This document shows positions 12,489-27,207 of a DNA stretch of 64,000 bases, in pieces. The notes below the pieces were generated by a model. That model was not told the DNA's origin. It did not search any database and saw nothing but the letters and a program-made list of their open reading frames with translations. The stretch covers positions 248,001 through 312,000 of the forward strand of contig JALEFZ010000055.1 in NCBI GenBank assembly GCA_022760475.1, in the 5' to 3' direction. A program made the translations under genes and the position numbers. Every line of letters begins with the position of its first letter. Within the stretch, counting starts at the first letter, position 1. Source of the DNA: Bacteroidia bacterium (GTDB taxonomy: Bacteria; Bacteroidota; Bacteroidia; J057).

Positions 12489-14723
12489 ATGAGACGGCAT
12501 TTTTTGATTCTCGTTCTCCTAATAGGTGCATGCTTCATAGCTAAAGCCCAGGAAGAATTTGATGTTACCAAACATATTGCTGACACCAAGGCTTTCACCT
12601 TTGATGACAACAAGAATACTGTACAGGGATACCTTTCTGTACAACTCACTGAAAAAACCAAATGTTGTGGCAAAGACCGCATCTACCTGGAAGTAAAGAT
12701 TGATCCTTCTGGGAATGTCCTTCATGCTAAAGCGATTACTGGTACCAATGAGTGTATCAGAAGATCTGCTGAAGACATTGTAAAAAATGTTAAATGGGAT
12801 GCCGCCGAATTTAGAGGCCCTACCTCTAAGTATTTGGAAATTCGTCCAGACATTGAGTGTACCGACTCAAGGGATAATTCTTACACCAAAATCGAAACAT
12901 TCAACAACGACCTACTGGATTCTGACGGAAACCCACGCAGAGAGGGCAGCGCGCCAGTAGTGAAAAAGGAAGAGCCTAAAGTAACCACTCCTGTAGTGAA
13001 GGCTGAACCGGTGAAAAAAGACCCTGTCAAGGAGACCAAAGTTGAGGAGAAGAAAGAAACTTCAATCAAGGAGGTTGCCACAAAAGCCAAGGATGACATG
13101 AAAGAGGTTGTCGCTACCAATGACGATAAAATGACCAGCGACAGCGATGAGGAGAAGCCTGCAAATGCAGATGAGTCTGTAGAAAAAGAAACCAAGGATG
13201 CTACCCGTCAAGCTCAAGAAGAGGAGGTAATTGCCCTTCGTGAGCAGTTGGCTGAAATGAGACGAAAAGAAATTGCCAAGCGTAGAAAGCAAGCTGCAAT
13301 TGCGAAGAAAAAGGCCGCTTACGAAGAGCGCAAAAGACGAGCTCGTGAGAAGAAGGAAGAGAATAGTTTTGCTAATAATAGCTCCAGCCTTTATGACGAA
13401 GATCCATATGCAGATAATGGCGATGGTACTGGTGAAGGGTTTGGTAGCCTGAATGGAGAAGTTCCAAAAGATGAAGCCATCGAAGAAGAAATCGCAAGAT
13501 TGAAGGAGCAGATTGCAGAGCTGAATGCTGCCAATGAAGAAAGAGATGCTGCAGTAAGGGCCAGCCTGGAAGAAGCAAAAACTACCAATCAGGAAATTCT
13601 AAGAATTGAAGAAGAGATTGTAGCCAAAGAAGAAGAAAAAGAGCGTTATCGCGAGGATCAGGAGCTTGCCAAGCTGGAGGAAGAAAAAGCACAAGCTGAA
13701 GAAGCTCGCCGCGCAGAGGAAGAGGCTTACGCCAGGATGATGGAAGAAATCAAGCGCCTTCAGGAAGAAGCTGATGCCAAGATCGCAGAGCTGGAAGCCA
13801 AGAAGAAGGAAGTTGATAAGATGGCCAAGCTGAAGATTGCGAGAGAGCAAGAGATTGCTTTAACCAGGTCTTTAAGAGATAAAGAGGCTCAAGCTAGGCT
13901 AGCTCAGGTTAGGTTCAACTTGCAATCACAAGGAACGCCAGTTGCCAGAATCGGAGATGAAGCCTCCGCCAATGAAAACTTGATGGATTTGCTTCCTGAC
14001 TTGACTACTGAGGTTGATAGCGAGAAATTGGCTAAGTTGATCCAGACCATCTCTGCCATGCAAGGTGAGATCGATCGCTTAAGAGGCCTTATCTCTTCTA
14101 TGGAATCAGGAGGTACTACTCCTAAGAACGGCACAGCTCCAAGTCGCATCGCCGGCGTAACAAGAAATAATCCTCCTGCAAAAACTAAAAAAGGTGGATT
14201 CAAAAATGCTGCTGAAACTGATGACTGGAAAGGATTTGATTACAAGCAGCCAGGACTGGAAGATTCTCCTATCTATACATCTGTGAACAATGAACAACCA
14301 CCTACAAATGGTAGCACCCCACAGAAGAATCCTACCGTAAAGAATACAGGAGAAGATACCAAGACCGGAAATCACGAAAACAGCACTGGACCTAAGTTCC
14401 AGCCTCGTGAGTACGTAGGTGGAAAATCTGCCATGAAGGATTTGATCAAGAGCAAACTGAAGGATGGAGGCGTTTGTGGCCTTGCTCAGTCAGTATTTTC
14501 CGTTACCTTGAACTCTTCAGGAAGGGTAATCAGGTCTGAAGTTCTAGCTGCAAACTCTCCCAAGGTGAAAGTTGAGCTTGAGCCAGTAATCAAAGGACTT
14601 AAGTTTAATGAAGTAAGCACCAGAATTCCACAGACTATTTACTTGGAATTTAAAGCTGAAATCCTTTGTGAAGGTGCTGAGAAAGTTAACCTGAAAGAAG
14701 TTCAGGATATCATCAAGAAATAA
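12489..14723 (+). CDS. Secreted coiled-coil protein with a TonB-C-like domain at each end
   Basis: This 744-residue protein has a signal peptide (MRRHFLILVLLIGACFIAKAQ). Residues about 45-120 form a small domain with Cys pairs and the IDPSGNVLHAKAITGT turn, resembling the C-terminal domain of TonB. A Lys/Glu/Pro-rich linker leads into a long, highly charged coiled coil (about 225-490). The last 100 residues (about 640-735) repeat the N-terminal domain pattern (VCGLAQS, LNSSGRVIRSEV, a closing YLEFKAEILC). A periplasmic or envelope role is likely from the signal peptide; the function is not recognised. A strong terminator follows, so the gene is probably a single unit. Confidence 0.8.
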   Translation: MRRHFLILVLLIGACFIAKAQEEFDVTKHIADTKAFTFDDNKNTVQGYLSVQLTEKTKCCGKDRIYLEVKIDPSGNVLHAKAITGTNECIRRSAEDIVKNVKWDAAEFRGPTSKYLEIRPDIECTDSRDNSYTKIETFNNDLLDSDGNPRREGSAPVVKKEEPKVTTPVVKAEPVKKDPVKETKVEEKKETSIKEVATKAKDDMKEVVATNDDKMTSDSDEEKPANADESVEKETKDATRQAQEEEVIALREQLAEMRRKEIAKRRKQAAIAKKKAAYEERKRRAREKKEENSFANNSSSLYDEDPYADNGDGTGEGFGSLNGEVPKDEAIEEEIARLKEQIAELNAANEERDAAVRASLEEAKTTNQEILRIEEEIVAKEEEKERYREDQELAKLEEEKAQAEEARRAEEEAYARMMEEIKRLQEEADAKIAELEAKKKEVDKMAKLKIAREQEIALTRSLRDKEAQARLAQVRFNLQSQGTPVARIGDEASANENLMDLLPDLTTEVDSEKLAKLIQTISAMQGEIDRLRGLISSMESGGTTPKNGTAPSRIAGVTRNNPPAKTKKGGFKNAAETDDWKGFDYKQPGLEDSPIYTSVNNEQPPTNGSTPQKNPTVKNTGEDTKTGNHENSTGPKFQPREYVGGKSAMKDLIKSKLKDGGVCGLAQSVFSVTLNSSGRVIRSEVLAANSPKVKVELEPVIKGLKFNEVSTRIPQTIYLEFKAEILCEGAEKVNLKEVQDIIKK

Positions 14724-14745: not shown

Positions 14746-14776
14746 AAGGCCGACGATTTTCGTCGGCCTTTTTTTA
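14746..14776 (+). terminator. Strong intrinsic terminator
   Basis: A perfect 11-bp stem (AAGGCCGACGA, closing arm at 14760-14770) with a 3-base loop is followed by a T run. It lies 22 bases after the stop of the coiled-coil gene. Confidence 0.93.
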
Positions 14777-14926: not shown

Positions 14927-16660
14927 ATGAACGCTACTTTCAAGGTAGACCCTCGCCTGGCCTCCCTCCTAGGGGAGAATTATCGCTCCACCGAGCTGGC
15001 CATCAAGGAACTCGTTGACAACGCTTTCGATGCTGATGCAGAGAATGTCTGGGTTGAATTACCTTCTCCGCTATCCACAGAGCCCCTCATCATCAAAGAT
15101 GATGGAACGGGCATGACTGAAAGCGAGATCAGGAATGAATACCTCAACATCGCTTCAAGCAGGGTTTCCAGAAAGGGGGAGCGTACCCGTCTTAAGAATC
15201 GTTTGGTAAAGGGAAGGAAAGGGATCGGAAAGTTCGCAGGGCTTATGGTCGCTTCCTTGATGGAAGTTTCATCTGACTGCCGTGGGAAGCAAACTATCCT
15301 TAGCATTTGGAGGGATGAACTCATGAAGGCTAAGCAAGATTTGGAACAAGTTTCCCTTCCCATCAGAGTAAAGGAGGTGGCTAAGGAATCCCATGGTACC
15401 ACCATTTCTTTAATGGGCATCAATCAAAATTTTACCTTCCCAAATCCAAACAGGCTAAAAAGGCTTTTGGTGTTGGAATATGGGAGACAAACTGATTTTC
15501 ACATTTATGTAAATGGAGAGTTGGTTGATTTAACGGACATTCCTGGAGAGACTTTTGAAGAGGCGTTCGCATTGAGCAATGGAGAACTTGCTACCTTGAG
15601 GTTTACCATTGCCCATCATAAGCACAGCTTGAAGCAGTCAGGAATTGCATTCAGGGTGGGAGGAAAAATCGTAGGCAGCCCTAAATATTTTGGGATGGAT
15701 GAGGAAGAGAGGTTTCCAGCGAGAATGCTGAAGCGCCTTTATGGGGAGATTGAAGCCAACAGCCTTGAAAAAGATGTAACGGCTGACTGGGGTTCGGTTA
15801 TTGATAATAGCCTGCTTTTAAATGAGATCAAACTGAAAATCAGGCCTGCACTTGTGAAGGCATTTGATAAAATCTTCCAGGCCGAGATGGAAATGGCCAA
15901 GGCAAGATTAAGAAAGAGGATGAATGGAAGTATTTCTCATTTACCCGAGTCCAAAAAGGGATTAGCCAACAATGTTCTGGATAAGGTATTGAGAAAGTTT
16001 TACGGAGAAAGCGAAAGTCGAATGGCATCTGTCGTTTCCTTGATTTTAGAAGCCGTAGAGCAAAATTCAAACCCCATGTTGACCCTGGATCTGAATCTCG
16101 AAAGGAGGGAAGCCTATGCTGAGTTTGGTTTACAGGACGTCGCCATGATTGCCCAGCAGTCCAGCCGTAGGCTGATGATTCTTGAGCAATTATCAGAGGT
16201 ATTGCTTTCGGCAGATACTCCTCCTGAGAAAATCAGGGAAGCAATTTCTACGAACCTTTGGCTTTTGGGAAGCAACTATACGCTTGTATCTACCAACAAC
16301 CAATTGGTTGAAGTAGCCAGGATGTATGTAGGCCATAAATGGAACAATGGTCATGCACATGAAGCTCCTAACTTGCTCTTACTTCAGGACTTTAACAAAG
16401 GATTCCTTGTCCTCGACTTAAAGCCTGCAGACCATACCGTAGAACTCCTTGACCGAAGGAAAGCCAAAGAATACCAATCTGACCTGAAGGTCTACCTACC
16501 TGGAAGGGACATTGAAGTTATTGTGATTGGTGGAGCCTTGTCGCCCAATCTTGTAGGGCAGAAGGCCAATGCCAGTATAAAGTTCCTGTCTTATAAGGGA
16601 ATGATTACCGATGCTAAGGTTCAGCTAAACTGGTTAGCAGGAGAGTTACAAAGACGATAG
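14927..16660 (+). CDS. MORC-like GHKL ATPase with possible degenerate PD-(D/E)XK-like C-terminus
   Basis: The N-terminal Bergerat-fold ATPase is clear: the N box has E28 and N32 in KELVDNAFDADA, the G1 box is DDGTG (58-62), and the Gly-rich G2 segment GRKGIGK covers 96-102. An S5/transducer-like domain follows to about residue 330, with HHKHSLKQSGI. The C-terminal 135 residues start with NLWLLGSNY (about 443) and show P481-N482, then D497-L-K499 and KAKEYQ. This could be a PD-(D/E)XK-like nuclease core of the kind found at the end of Shedu-type and MORC-like proteins; that part is inference. GHKL/MORC-like proteins in bacteria are often linked to restriction or defence. It probably forms an operon with the membrane protein 30 bases downstream. 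Confidence 0.75.
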   Translation: MNATFKVDPRLASLLGENYRSTELAIKELVDNAFDADAENVWVELPSPLSTEPLIIKDDGTGMTESEIRNEYLNIASSRVSRKGERTRLKNRLVKGRKGIGKFAGLMVASLMEVSSDCRGKQTILSIWRDELMKAKQDLEQVSLPIRVKEVAKESHGTTISLMGINQNFTFPNPNRLKRLLVLEYGRQTDFHIYVNGELVDLTDIPGETFEEAFALSNGELATLRFTIAHHKHSLKQSGIAFRVGGKIVGSPKYFGMDEEERFPARMLKRLYGEIEANSLEKDVTADWGSVIDNSLLLNEIKLKIRPALVKAFDKIFQAEMEMAKARLRKRMNGSISHLPESKKGLANNVLDKVLRKFYGESESRMASVVSLILEAVEQNSNPMLTLDLNLERREAYAEFGLQDVAMIAQQSSRRLMILEQLSEVLLSADTPPEKIREAISTNLWLLGSNYTLVSTNNQLVEVARMYVGHKWNNGHAHEAPNLLLLQDFNKGFLVLDLKPADHTVELLDRRKAKEYQSDLKVYLPGRDIEVIVIGGALSPNLVGQKANASIKFLSYKGMITDAKVQLNWLAGELQRR

Positions 16661-16690
16661 CATAGGGTACTAATACCCAAAGAAAGGACA

Positions 16691-17161
16691 ATGAAAATTC
16701 TCTTTATTCTTCTCGCTTTTGGTGCACTTACCCTAGGAGTTATATTGGCGAAGGACTATCTGAGCAACAAAAATTTTAAAAAGGAAGACCTCAGTTGGAG
16801 AAATGGTAAACTCTCTTCAAATCCACGCTTCAGCAAGGATGAGGACGGGATTATTGTGAGTGTGAAGCTAAGACTTGAGAATGAGTCCAAGCCCTTGGTC
16901 ATTCCCGGTAAACTTCTTAGAACATTGGATTTTGGTCTAGACAGACTTTCCGAAGGTGATGAGATTAGCTTTGCAGTTGTTGAAAAGGAATCTTATAAAC
17001 CTGTAAAAAGCCTCTATTCCCTTGAAGATAAAAACGGCTCGATCCTTAATTTGGATCAAGCCACTCATTTTTATGAAAAAAACAATTACGTCTTTTTATT
17101 GCTCGCTACTTTTGCTTTTGGAGTTGGGGCTACACTGATTTTTTATTCAAATAAAGTGTAG
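16691..17161 (+). CDS. Small two-helix membrane protein, unknown function
   Basis: This 156-residue protein has one hydrophobic helix at the N-terminus (about 2-20), a central soluble beta-rich region (about 45-120) with alternating hydrophobic and charged residues, and a second helix at the C-terminus (about 130-150). Both ends are in the membrane with the middle exposed on one side. No family was recognised. It starts 30 bases after the GHKL ATPase on the same strand with no terminator between, so co-transcription is likely. It ends 18 bases before the converging dacB. Confidence 0.7.
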   Translation: MKILFILLAFGALTLGVILAKDYLSNKNFKKEDLSWRNGKLSSNPRFSKDEDGIIVSVKLRLENESKPLVIPGKLLRTLDFGLDRLSEGDEISFAVVEKESYKPVKSLYSLEDKNGSILNLDQATHFYEKNNYVFLLLATFAFGVGATLIFYSNKV

Positions 17162-22546: not shown

Positions 22547-23494
22547 CTAATTCTTTTTTAGAATCATTAGGTACATAGGATAATTTTGAAGTCCAGCCCT
22601 ATCTTCTCCATAAATAAATCTTCCATTCTGGTAGTATTTGATGGTTTCTCTATGGACTTGAAAACTGATATCGGAATAATTCATGACACTAATTCCCATG
22701 TTGTAACTGATGCTGCGGCTCACACTCTTAACTACTTTCCCATTTTTTAGGTAGGATTCATATTGATGTTCCTCGACAAAAGCTCCACCTTCGTCAGCCA
22801 TATGACTGGATTTTTGTATAAGGATTTCACCATTTGCACCTTTGAACTCACTTGATTTATCCGAGGAAACAGCATCTCCTCCTTCTTCTTCGGAAGCACT
22901 GAAATCTTCCAGGTAGATGATTTCTTCTTCCAGTTTTTGCCTGGTCAAGCTGTCTACATATTGATCAATTTGCTTGATGTAGCGATTATATTTTGGATAG
23001 GACGATCGTTTTCTTTGTTCGGATATCCATATTTCGTTGAAGGCAGACAATATAAGGCTGGCAACCTCCTTGTTTTTCTCAAAATAAGCTTCGCTTTCAG
23101 GATCATGGTATACCTTGCCTTTGCCTAGCCACCTAATCAGTTCAGGAAACATCAAGTCATGCTTCATGTGCTTAAAATAGAAGCGGTCTTCCTGCTCCCC
23201 TTTTTTTATGTAGGCAAAATTCAGTTTGTGTGGATGGCCTTCAAATGTAGCTTCGATCCTTGCGCCGTCATGGTAGAAGACAATTTCCTGAATTTCATTG
23301 TGGCGATACCACACCTTGGTCTGCCCGAAGTTCCTGACTTGATAATCTCCTGGGGTATGGGCTATGGCATAGTAATGTTTCCTAATGTGCTCGATGAGCT
23401 TGGGATCAGCATTATCTTGAGAAAAAATGCTTTTTGCTCCCAGCAATAGGGTAACAAAAAGCATTATTTTGATATTTGGTAAAATGAATTTCAT
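22547..23494 (-). CDS. Secreted protein of unknown family (tandem paralogue A)
   Basis: A 315-residue protein with a signal peptide (ends SIFSQ). After it comes DNADPKLIEHIRKHYY, then short strands with G.TKVWYR and IEATFEGHPHKLNF. The middle is helical and charged (Glu-rich, about 180-225). The C-terminal part has repeated Tyr-rich strands. No domain was recognised. The neighbouring gene (23567-24514) encodes a protein of exactly the same length with matching motifs at the same positions, so the two are tandem duplicates. Confidence 0.65.
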   Translation of the reverse strand: MKFILPNIKIMLFVTLLLGAKSIFSQDNADPKLIEHIRKHYYAIAHTPGDYQVRNFGQTKVWYRHNEIQEIVFYHDGARIEATFEGHPHKLNFAYIKKGEQEDRFYFKHMKHDLMFPELIRWLGKGKVYHDPESEAYFEKNKEVASLILSAFNEIWISEQRKRSSYPKYNRYIKQIDQYVDSLTRQKLEEEIIYLEDFSASEEEGGDAVSSDKSSEFKGANGEILIQKSSHMADEGGAFVEEHQYESYLKNGKVVKSVSRSISYNMGISVMNYSDISFQVHRETIKYYQNGRFIYGEDRAGLQNYPMYLMILKKN

Positions 23495-23566
23495 AAAGGG
23501 AAATGATTAGGTTCTGCCTTTATGAGACGGGAGCATTTGATTTAGCTAAACAAGAAAATTGGGCAA

Positions 23567-24514
23567 TTACTTGAACTGTTTATTTCCTTCGAGTCTGATG
23601 TCCCAATAAGTGGAATAACCATTGATGAAATGCTGATTCAAGCTAAAGAAAGCCTTGCCATCCCTGAAATACCTGCGTTGCTTATTCATTACCTTAAAGT
23701 CTTTTCTTTCTTCATAGAATTTAAGCGCTATCCAGTAATAGGAAGCTTGGTTGACAACTTCCAGCTTGACTTTTTCTCCTTGTTCAAAATATGTGTTTGA
23801 GTAATTGTTTGTCCCACCATTTCCTTCAAAGGAAGATGAAACTGTCTTGATGACAAGACTTCCTGCTCGGTTATATCTTTCTATGGAGACCTCTCTGCTC
23901 GTCCCACTTCCATCACCCTCATCAAAATACTCGCTTATGATGGTTTTCTTTTCTTTGTTCAGGTCACTTTCGATGTTTCTACCGTATGAATCAATGCTTC
24001 GTATTTGATTTTTATTCCCCAGGTATGCTTCGTCCTTCTCAATAAATAATTCTCCCAAAATGTCATAGTAGAGCTTGAGACATCTGCTAGAGAACTGAAG
24101 ATTCATGTCAAAGTACTCCTTTTCTGTGGGTTGAATGTAGTTGCCATTTTCGACGTAACGTTCCATCGTAGGAAAGGGATATGGATTGTCAAAGTGGCGG
24201 AAATAACACCTTATTTCCTGGCTTTCATTCTTGAGATAGTAGAAATTTAGTTTTTCGGCGCTTCCTTCAAAGCAGATTTCTTCTTTCGAATTGCCTTTTT
24301 CCAGTTCGATCTTGTGGATCTTTCCATCCTTCAACCAGACCTTGGTCTTTCCTAAATCCTGTAGTTCGTATTTGTCGGGATTGTTGGCGATGTCATAATA
24401 GTGCTTTCTTATAGATTCAATCAGCTCAGGATTGGCCTTGTCCTGTCCTAGTGAAAAATTAATGCTGAGAATAACCAGGAAAGCAAGGAGAGAATATTTT
24501 CTAAGTCGGGACAT
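23567..24514 (-). CDS. Secreted protein of unknown family (tandem paralogue B)
   Basis: A 315-residue protein with a signal peptide (ends FSLGQ). It shares ANPELIESIRKHYYDIA, GKTKVWLKDGKI, CFEGSAEKLNFYYLK, REVSIERYNRAGS and a final Tyr/Phe-rich strand region with paralogue A, at similar positions. No known domain was recognised; a role in the periplasm or outer surface is suggested only by the signal peptide. It lies 72 bases upstream of paralogue A on the same strand with no terminator between. Confidence 0.65.
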   Translation of the reverse strand: MSRLRKYSLLAFLVILSINFSLGQDKANPELIESIRKHYYDIANNPDKYELQDLGKTKVWLKDGKIHKIELEKGNSKEEICFEGSAEKLNFYYLKNESQEIRCYFRHFDNPYPFPTMERYVENGNYIQPTEKEYFDMNLQFSSRCLKLYYDILGELFIEKDEAYLGNKNQIRSIDSYGRNIESDLNKEKKTIISEYFDEGDGSGTSREVSIERYNRAGSLVIKTVSSSFEGNGGTNNYSNTYFEQGEKVKLEVVNQASYYWIALKFYEERKDFKVMNKQRRYFRDGKAFFSLNQHFINGYSTYWDIRLEGNKQFK

Positions 24515-24681: not shown

Positions 24682-25389
24682 ATGGAAAAGGGCAAAAAAT
24701 CAAGGATTGGGATATTGGAATTGTTAGCGACCTTCATTTTTGTGGGGTTCATGCTAGGGCCTTATATGTGGAGAATTGCCCTTGAACCTAGAACTGAGGC
24801 TATATGTTCATTTCCTGAGGGGAAAACAGTTCGAAAATGCCACCAGCTTTCTGTTGTAACTGGTAGGGTGGAAGATTTCTTTAATCCTAAATTTATCTGT
24901 GGTACAAAAACACCACCACCAACTTTGCCTATAGAGAATAAGGAAGCTCTGGTAGAAAAACCTCTTGGAGCGATAAAAGAAATTGAGGAATTGCCTTTGC
25001 TTCTCACGGAAGAGGAAGATGAATACATTGTACATCCTGATTCTTTGGAAAATGGCTATGACCTGATAAAAAAATCCATATCAGAACCCATTAGATATCC
25101 AATCCTGGACCAGACCCCTGTTCCTATCAACATGGATGAGGTCATCAAGCAAATTAAATATCCAGAATTGGCAAAAGAAGCTGGCATACAGGGAACCTTC
25201 GCTTGTAGGGTTTTGATTGATAAAAAAGGAGGGTATCTGAGGCACATATGGATCAGTGATGTGCATGCAGTTTGGAAAAAGGAACTTGAAAACCATATTC
25301 CCAAACTTCGATTTTTACCTGCGATACAAGATGGTGTGCCTGTAAAACTGTGGGTTAATATTCCTTTGCACGTTTGTCCAATAAGATAA
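24682..25389 (+). CDS. TonB-family protein 1 of 3
   Basis: A 235-residue protein with a short cytoplasmic start and one membrane helix (about 10-28) ending in the motif GPYMW. A Pro/Glu-rich stretch leads to a C-terminal TonB-like domain with YPELAKEAGIQG, LIDKKGGYLRH and LPAIQDGVPVKLWVNIPL. TonB proteins pass energy from the ExbB/D motor to outer-membrane receptors, but no exbB or exbD is in the window. Unlike the third copy it lacks the GYGAYELR motif before the helix. It overlaps the next gene by 16 bases. Confidence 0.8.
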   Translation: MEKGKKSRIGILELLATFIFVGFMLGPYMWRIALEPRTEAICSFPEGKTVRKCHQLSVVTGRVEDFFNPKFICGTKTPPPTLPIENKEALVEKPLGAIKEIEELPLLLTEEEDEYIVHPDSLENGYDLIKKSISEPIRYPILDQTPVPINMDEVIKQIKYPELAKEAGIQGTFACRVLIDKKGGYLRHIWISDVHAVWKKELENHIPKLRFLPAIQDGVPVKLWVNIPLHVCPIR

Positions 25390-26189
25390 TTCGAAAAGCC
25401 ATGAAACACTCTTCTCGTTCAGCAGCCTTCGATCAGGATAGCTTTGATTTTCGGAGGAAAATCAAGGCCATTGATTATCAGTTATTGATATTCTGTCTGT
25501 TATGTTTTTCTGCTGGCCCGTATTTGTGGTGCAAATTGTTGATGGGATTATATCCAGAGCAAAGGGATGAAGCCAGGTTTGGATGCCGTCTCTTCTTGCC
25601 AGGCATTCATGATTTCATTCCGCCCTGGGAACTACCCTTAGCTGATACAAGTATTTCAACAAAAACACAGCTCACATTCCGCCTGCCCAGGCCTACCCCA
25701 GATGAAATAAAGGCAATAGAGCGAGGTGAAAATCCTGGCAGGATAAATATAGTCTTGATTGACTCAATGCTACTAATTGAAAATATAGAAATACCCGAAC
25801 CGGTTGAACTTGAGGAAATGGGGGAGTTAGATGCAAATTTTGTGAGTTTTGAAGAGGAATATATCTGCGAATTAACTCCTGACGCAAGTTTTATGGGGTA
25901 TTCATTTGACCAGGAACCCATTGCCATAAATATTGAGGATGTAAAAGAACAGGTTCAATTTCCTTTCAGGAGAAAAAGCAACATACCAAAGGGAACTTTA
26001 GTTGTCAGGATTTTGATTGACAAAAGGGGGAATTATAAGAAACATCAAATCTTGAAACCTCTTCATCCCATCTGTGTCAGGTCTGTCGAGAAGCATGTCC
26101 ACTTGATAAGGTTTACTCCTGCGATCCAGGGAGGAAGGCCAATAGAGACCTGGATAATTGTCCCTTTTCACTTTAGTGAGTTGGATTGA
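25374..26189 (+). CDS. TonB-family protein 2 of 3
   Basis: A 271-residue protein with one membrane helix (about 35-52) followed by GPYLW. A long Glu/Pro-rich periplasmic spacer leads to a TonB-C-like domain in which the AGIQG turn of its paralogues is replaced by SNIPKG. The LIDKRGNYKKH and TPAIQGGRPIETWIIVPF segments are intact. The start ATG overlaps the end of copy 1 by 16 bases; an in-frame ATG at 25401 is an alternative start. It is the most divergent of the three copies. Function beyond a TonB-like role is unknown. Confidence 0.75.
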   Translation: MSNKIIRKAMKHSSRSAAFDQDSFDFRRKIKAIDYQLLIFCLLCFSAGPYLWCKLLMGLYPEQRDEARFGCRLFLPGIHDFIPPWELPLADTSISTKTQLTFRLPRPTPDEIKAIERGENPGRINIVLIDSMLLIENIEIPEPVELEEMGELDANFVSFEEEYICELTPDASFMGYSFDQEPIAINIEDVKEQVQFPFRRKSNIPKGTLVVRILIDKRGNYKKHQILKPLHPICVRSVEKHVHLIRFTPAIQGGRPIETWIIVPFHFSELD

Positions 26190-26334
26190 TTTTTTTGATA
26201 AAGGGTCAGAAAACTGATAGATAAATTTGTGGAAAATGAATACTACTTTCCTCTTATAAGTGAATACAATGTTTGCGTTAAGTCCTGGTTATTAGGGGAT
26301 TGATATGTAAATATCAGATTTTCCTGATTACACC

Positions 26335-26364
26335 ACCCTGTCAGGGTTATAACCCTGACAGGGT
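26335..26364. repeat. Perfect 30-bp palindrome (REP-like)
   Basis: The 30 bases are identical to their own reverse complement: arm ACCCTGTCAGGGTTA at 26335-26349, mirrored at 26350-26364. Each arm itself holds the CCCTGTCAGGG mini-palindrome. It lies between TonB-like genes 2 and 3. There is no T run, so it is unlikely to be a terminator. CCTGTCAGGG-type palindromes occur as interspersed repeats in Bacteroidota; copy number elsewhere in this genome is unknown. Confidence 0.75.
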
Positions 26365-26400
26365 TAGGGCTAGCTATGTTCCATTTCTAACTAACAAATC

Positions 26401-27207
26401 ATGAAACAAAAGACTTTTGCAGATTGGGATGAAATGCTTTTTGAAGGCAAGGAAAAAGGCTATGGCGCCTACGAATTAAGGAGTAAGTACCAAAAAAGGC
26501 TTTCAATCGCCCTGGGAATTGCCATTCTCTTTTTTCTATCATCTACACTTGGACCCTATCTGTGGATGAAGGCCTATGGGATGGATAGTGTGTCCAGGCC
26601 GACAAGGCCAAGAGCTGTACCTGTCAACCTGCCTCCCCCCGTTGAAAAGCCAAAAGAAGAGGTTGAGTTGCCCCCTCCGGCCAAACCAAAGGTGAAAAAA
26701 CTGAAAACCTTGAGTTTCAACATTCCCAAGCCTGATCCTGAGGCAGATGATAGCACGAGCATCCGCTCGATTGACAGCCTTTCGCTAGCCAAGAATCTGG
26801 GCGTCCATGAGGTAGAGGGAGAGGATGAGTATGCGCTATTTACTGACTCCATGGATATTGATGGAGAGGATTACAATTATGTCGCTCCTCCGAGTATCCC
26901 CGATCCTGATGTGTTTTTGATGCCTGATCAGCAGCCTGTTCCTCTGAATATCAATGATATCAAATCATTGATAGGCTATCCTGCCATGGCGAGAGAAGCA
27001 GGTATCCAAGGAAATGTAGTTTTGAGGGTATTGGTGGACAAAAAAGGGAAGTACCAAAAGCATCTTGTAATCCAAAATGGACATCCATTGCTTACCCGAG
27101 CAGTAGAGGATAAGATCAATCTTTTGACCTTTACCCCAGCAATCCAGGGTAAAAAGCCCATATATTTTTGGGTGAATATCCCGTTCAACTTTGTGTTACA
27201 GGACTAA
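26401..27207 (+). CDS. TonB-family energy-transducer-like protein 3 of 3
   Basis: This is the most typical TonB of the three (268 residues). The Bacteroidota motif KGYGAYELRSKY (about 20-31) precedes the membrane helix (about 35-53), which ends in GPYLW. A Pro-rich spacer (PVNLPPPVEKPKEE...) spans the periplasm and the C-terminal domain has YPAMAREAGIQG, LVDKKGKYQKH, TPAIQGKKPIYFWVNIPF. The expected role is transferring energy to TonB-dependent receptors; motor partners are not in view. It follows copies 1 and 2 on the same strand after the 30-bp palindrome. Confidence 0.87.
   Translation: MKQKTFADWDEMLFEGKEKGYGAYELRSKYQKRLSIALGIAILFFLSSTLGPYLWMKAYGMDSVSRPTRPRAVPVNLPPPVEKPKEEVELPPPAKPKVKKLKTLSFNIPKPDPEADDSTSIRSIDSLSLAKNLGVHEVEGEDEYALFTDSMDIDGEDYNYVAPPSIPDPDVFLMPDQQPVPLNINDIKSLIGYPAMAREAGIQGNVVLRVLVDKKGKYQKHLVIQNGHPLLTRAVEDKINLLTFTPAIQGKKPIYFWVNIPFNFVLQD

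Follow-up and report, generated by a model that had tools for sequence, protein, structure and literature searches.

A MORC-like ATPase whose Shedu-fold domain has lost its nuclease active site across one Bacteroidota family

We analysed a GHKL-type ATPase gene in a 64,000-nt stretch of DNA, here called the window. The gene encodes 577 amino acids and is followed, 30 bases later on the same strand, by an open reading frame of 156 codons. Both reading frames lie where an earlier sequence-only reading had placed them, and each motif it had listed (E28, N32, DDGTG, GRKGIGK, P481-N482, D497-x-K499 and KAKEYQ) was found at its position. The features of the locus are:

12489-14723, plus strand: upstream neighbour, a 744-aa protein with a signal peptide, coiled-coil-like; conserved, marks the syntenic site
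14746-14770, plus strand: intrinsic terminator (11-pair stem, 7 G-C, T tract), lying after the 744-aa gene and before the GHKL gene
14927-16660, plus strand: gene of the finding, GHKL ATPase with a Shedu-fold pseudo-nuclease domain, 577 aa
14927-15526, plus strand: GHKL ATPase domain, residues 1-200 (HATPase_c_3 at 22-158)
15008-15010, plus strand: E28, catalytic Glu of ATPase motif I, invariant in 7/7 family homologues
15020-15022, plus strand: N32, ATPase domain residue listed with motif I
15098-15112, plus strand: DDGTG 58-62, motif II (D58, G60 and G62 invariant in the family)
15212-15232, plus strand: GRKGIGK 96-102, ATP lid, motif III, invariant in the family
15527-15916, plus strand: S5-like transducer, approximate residues 201-330, from the model alignment to MORC2
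16217-16657, plus strand: Shedu-fold pseudo-nuclease domain, residues 431-577 (separate model, structure matches, hhalign)
16223-16225, plus strand: P433 (E in 13/13 intact relatives)
16370-16372, plus strand: N482 (catalytic D in 13/13 intact relatives)
16415-16423, plus strand: D497-L-K499 (E-(F/L)-K in intact relatives)
16460-16477, plus strand: KAKEYQ 512-517 (QA..YR in intact relatives)
16691-17161, plus strand: orphan membrane protein, 156 aa, 30 bases after the GHKL gene

Rfam gave no match near the GHKL gene. Elsewhere in the window, we observed three adjacent homologous genes at 24682-27207, two of which were examined and bear TonB C-terminal domains, as well as two adjacent homologous minus-strand genes, each of 315 aa, at 22547-24514, the one examined having no Pfam match.

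The N-terminal part of the 577-aa protein matched HATPase_c_3 (1.8e-27), and its ATPase motifs were invariant across seven genera of the window's family. We modelled the whole protein with AlphaFold2 (mean pLDDT 78.6), the model alignments comprising only the window protein, L009 and five IMG/VR homologues. In a VIA-align comparison, the GHKL and S5 module of MORC2 matched residues 6-318 of this model (Z 17.7, rmsd 9.7, 283 aligned), with MORC3 reaching Z 17.0; the shared fold is what was compared here, at ∼16% identity. The proposal of a MORC-like ATPase was thus confirmed, with intact GHKL motifs and an S5-like transducer behind them, as in type I-D Shedu / paraMORC3 proteins. Unlike eukaryotic MORC2 and MORC3, which have no nuclease, the window protein carries a remnant of a Shedu fold in place of the MORC C-terminal parts. 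Two other assignments were rejected. The type II restriction enzymes of the BbrUII/HgiDII type (NF050001) share a related GHKL domain (2e-33, residues 15-204), but the window protein scored 115.8 bits where the cut-off is 550, and its best stretch lay in the ATPase part. Likewise, PADLOC offered no named defence system, as its REase_II models matched the GHKL part only.

Because the ATPase filled the Foldseek and VIA lists obtained with the whole model, the C-terminal domain (residues 431-577) was modelled and searched alone (pLDDT 86.7, pTM 0.84). With VIA-align, the closest match was the nuclease domain of Bacillus cereus Shedu, 8ti9 (Z 11.7, rmsd 3.0, 143 aligned). It was followed by E. coli SduA (8ps5, Z 9.9; 8ps4, Z 9.7), with which the repair nuclease EndoMS was tied (Z 9.7); Foldseek alone ranked EndoMS first. 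Structure prediction, which had been suggested for this region, therefore returned a Shedu nuclease fold. Sequence profiles agreed: hhalign aligned the window's C-terminal module to relatives with an intact core with a probability of 99.9, and a sequence search with a profile of these intact relatives retrieved the PDB entry 8ti8 of SduA (E 0.0018). The Pfam family SduA_C (PF14082) matched several intact relatives (best 6.1e-9) and did not match the window protein at E values up to 1. The resemblance to a Shedu-type PD-(D/E)XK core, noted from the sequence, is thus real, and the domain is the C-terminal one expected of type I-D Shedu / paraMORC3. The likeness to BcSduA and EcSduA (8ti8, 8ti9, 8ps4, 8ps5) is one of fold in this domain; in contrast to the window protein, these have no GHKL part, and their wild types have an intact active site.

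Homologues were present in 7 of the 13 genomes and 7 of the 10 genera of the window's family, counting the window's own genome. They are 58–63% identical and form a single clade with full support (100/100), the branches within it being weakly supported. We compared them with 13 full-length relatives from outside the family (three belonging to other Bacteroidota families, a further one to the class, four on proteobacterial plasmids and five on IMG/VR contigs), which are ∼36–45% identical where measured. All 13 keep the motif RPD...(I)E(F/L)K. In the seven family members, the position of the catalytic aspartate D482 reads N, N, N, T, N, N, N, so that the asparagine noticed at the PD motif of the window protein is part of a family-wide replacement by N or T. 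Position 497 reads D, D, N, D, E, D, Y and position 499 reads K, K, K, K, K, N, K, the lysine having been lost once. At position 512 (K, L, Q, R, Q, R, L), most members no longer have the glutamine of the QxxxY-like motif, which is kept in two of the seven, and E433, D482, E497, R480 and R517 are each either lost altogether or kept in at most one. Invariant D488 was considered as a migrated acid and discarded; it sits in the turn that joins the two core strands, and some intact relatives have it as well.

Of the columns invariant in the 13 outside relatives, all seven family members keep 46 of 47 in the GHKL part and only 6 of 24 in the C-terminal part (47/47 and 11/24 for the window protein alone), so it is the nuclease end specifically that has changed. 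When the E-D-(D/E)XK catalytic residues that define type I-D Shedu / paraMORC3 were tested in the window protein, only K499 was unchanged (E433P, D482N, E497D, Q512K), and for this reason we regard the protein as a derivative of type I-D Shedu that has lost the nuclease, and do not count it among the functional members. The novelty lies in the active site being lost clade-wide with the Shedu fold retained. The suggestion that the protein is a nuclease accordingly stands as a statement of descent, given the fold, and falls as one of present activity.

All seven family reading frames are open, with no stop codons. Within the family, the C-terminal domain (mean identity 58%, dN 0.37) has diverged about as much as the S5 region (59%, 0.36), and dN/dS was about 0.1–0.24 across regions, values that are rough since dS was saturated and few pairs gave a finite estimate. 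Purifying selection acts on the entire protein. Judging from these alignments, the C-terminal domain appears to be retained for something other than cutting.

In five genera, the GHKL gene sits at one chromosomal site, after the same 744-aa-type gene. Where the contig reaches, dusB and CAAX-protease-like, cytidylyltransferase and glutamate-dehydrogenase-type genes are further shared neighbours. In one family genome (G002) the gene lies at another site, and in a second (G012) the contig ends. In four family genomes without the GHKL gene, the 744-aa-type gene is present (as is dusB, where the contig reaches) and is followed by unrelated genes; we regard this upstream neighbour as a marker of the syntenic site that is outside the mechanism. 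One family genome (G007, contigs C136 and C147) has two copies of dusB, each with a match to the 744-aa-type gene next to it. The window's genome has a single copy of the GHKL gene, and a scan of genome contigs returned only one relative. No defence gene, helicase or conserved partner adjoins the family gene. The mobile or defence-island setting of type I-D Shedu / paraMORC3, which the sequence-only reading had proposed to look for, was therefore not observed; the position is housekeeping-like. As the gene is missing from 6 of the 13 family genomes, it is not essential family-wide.

The architecture itself has been described. ParaMORC3 proteins, found in Proteobacteria and Bacteroidota, combine a GHKL and S5 ATPase with one C-terminal domain of restriction-endonuclease fold, typified by E-D-ExK (Iyer, Abhiman and Aravind 2008, PMC2292703). 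In 2025, VcSduA was reported as an anti-phage 'type I-D Shedu' and equated with paraMORC3; its protection was abolished by mutation of either the ATPase glutamate (E27A) or the nuclease lysine (K557A) (PMC12137116). The window protein has the same architecture as paraMORC3 and, set beside VcSduA by its published description, the same domain order, so that its kind is already known; this is the described counterpart that the sequence-only reading had missed. It differs from paraMORC3 in having P, N and D for the E, D and second E, with further variation in the clade, and from VcSduA in that the clade is without the nuclease residues and has the gene at a fixed place in the chromosome, not in a genomic island.

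The outside relatives were found on plasmids beside a PDC-S28 helicase, with others in IMG/VR contigs, one of them beside a SIR2/AbiH-like gene. On Sinorhizobium and Agrobacterium plasmids (L025, 8994-13746; L026, 9016-13746), an intact relative is divergent from the PDC-S28 helicase (∼1107–1111 bits), which suggests a unit of helicase and GHKL-Shedu protein on these plasmids. On a plasmid of Rhizobium sp. B21/90 (NZ_CP072166.1; L030, 7914-11319), a GHKL ATPase without an SduA_C match and, 10 bases downstream, a stand-alone Shedu nuclease (SduA_C 3.4e-20) have genes of their own, type I-D Shedu thus being split into its two halves. In Rhizobium gallicum (L029, 9944-11500), the alignment stops at about residue 467, the nuclease domain is lost and the C-terminal end is unrelated; this is probably a truncated copy.

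The loss of the cutting residues, together with the intact ATP engine, suggests that the protein probably acts on DNA without cutting it. Our leading explanation, which we consider somewhat better than an even bet, is that it is a nuclease-dead descendant of paraMORC3 / type I-D Shedu, fixed in one Bacteroidota family and now a predicted non-cutting, ATP-driven DNA clamp. On binding ATP, a dimer would shut its GHKL heads around DNA in the manner of MORC, MutL and Hsp90-type clamps; the one-time nuclease domain would no longer cut and would serve as a docking module for DNA or protein; and the protein would hold, loop or mark DNA, most likely for genome maintenance, a role that we favour over non-cutting defence. 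The fuller version of this idea, that one family domesticated a bacterial immune nuclease, turning it into an ATP-driven clamp that does not cut DNA and has a role in chromosomal maintenance, in parallel to the nuclease-free eukaryotic MORC proteins, is put forward tentatively, as we rate it a little below even.

The alternative that survives best, though we think it rather unlikely, is that the protein still serves in defence: the ATPase would sense invading DNA and either act without cutting or activate a nuclease elsewhere, the dead domain being a DNA-end sensor. Shedu does bind DNA ends (PMC12904381), and VcSduA, the nearest characterised relative by architecture, is anti-phage; yet the protection it confers needs the nuclease lysine, K557A being inactive (PMC12137116). 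The outside relatives in IMG/VR (prophage-type) contigs, or beside the defence candidate PDC-S28 or the SIR2/AbiH-like gene, fit such a role, as does the patchy presence in 7 of 13 family genomes. Against this stand the fixed chromosomal site among housekeeping neighbours in five genera and the lack of an adjoining defence gene, helicase or conserved partner. As for a nuclease elsewhere, a search of the 13 family genomes turned up no second SduA_C protein, and was equally silent in its control genomes.

We find it improbable that the protein is still an ordinary, active type I-D Shedu nuclease, one in which metal-dependent cleavage can proceed with N482 and D497 in place. The fold is kept and D497-x-K499 is a legal (D/E)XK pair, so that weak cutting activity may remain in the window protein itself. 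However, in sister proteins the acid is replaced by Y or N and the lysine by N, and the other active-site residues are gone from nearly all of the clade, as listed above. D-to-N is, moreover, a standard inactivating change in the PD-(D/E)XK fold.

It is more doubtful still that the ATPase and the membrane protein form a two-gene system, as had been proposed. The two genes share a strand, are spaced by 30 bases and have no terminator that we could find between them, and the second is probably co-transcribed with the first here by proximity. Residues 1-19 and 133-151 of the 156-aa protein form its two hydrophobic segments; its codon usage is coding-like, as in the neighbouring genes, and it matched no family above any curated cut-off, in keeping with the initial impression of a protein of no known family. 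Relatives of it were absent from the other 12 of 13 family genomes, from the other 394 of 395 phylum genomes and from plasmids, leaving its own genome only, and when the genes downstream of 18 homologues were surveyed for co-occurrence, none (0/18) was a small one with hydrophobic segments at both ends. The membrane protein is an orphan whose pairing with the ATPase is specific to this genome, with no conserved role.

A decaying defence gene without present function would account for the lost active site and for the absence from some family members, but is scarcely credible given seven intact frames at ∼40% protein divergence with dS saturated, the low dN/dS in the few finite pairs and the 46 of 47 GHKL columns kept invariant.

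The non-cutting clamp remains our preferred reading, and it touches on an earlier idea. Iyer et al. speculated that a stand-alone subset of paraMORC3 may have acquired functions beyond restriction systems, and likened a possible recruitment to repair to the degeneration of the MutL nuclease; eukaryotic MORC proteins are themselves thought to derive from bacterial restriction-type ATPases (PMC2292703). The window clade is a concrete case for this idea of paraMORC3 gaining other functions. It is also a warning to annotation pipelines that a Shedu-like domain is not necessarily an active nuclease. If our explanation is true, the family offers a testable case of an immune enzyme that became a DNA-handling housekeeping protein by losing its cutter and keeping its engine; eukaryotic MORC proteins act on DNA without a nuclease, and a similar change would then have taken place here, inside a known bacterial defence family.
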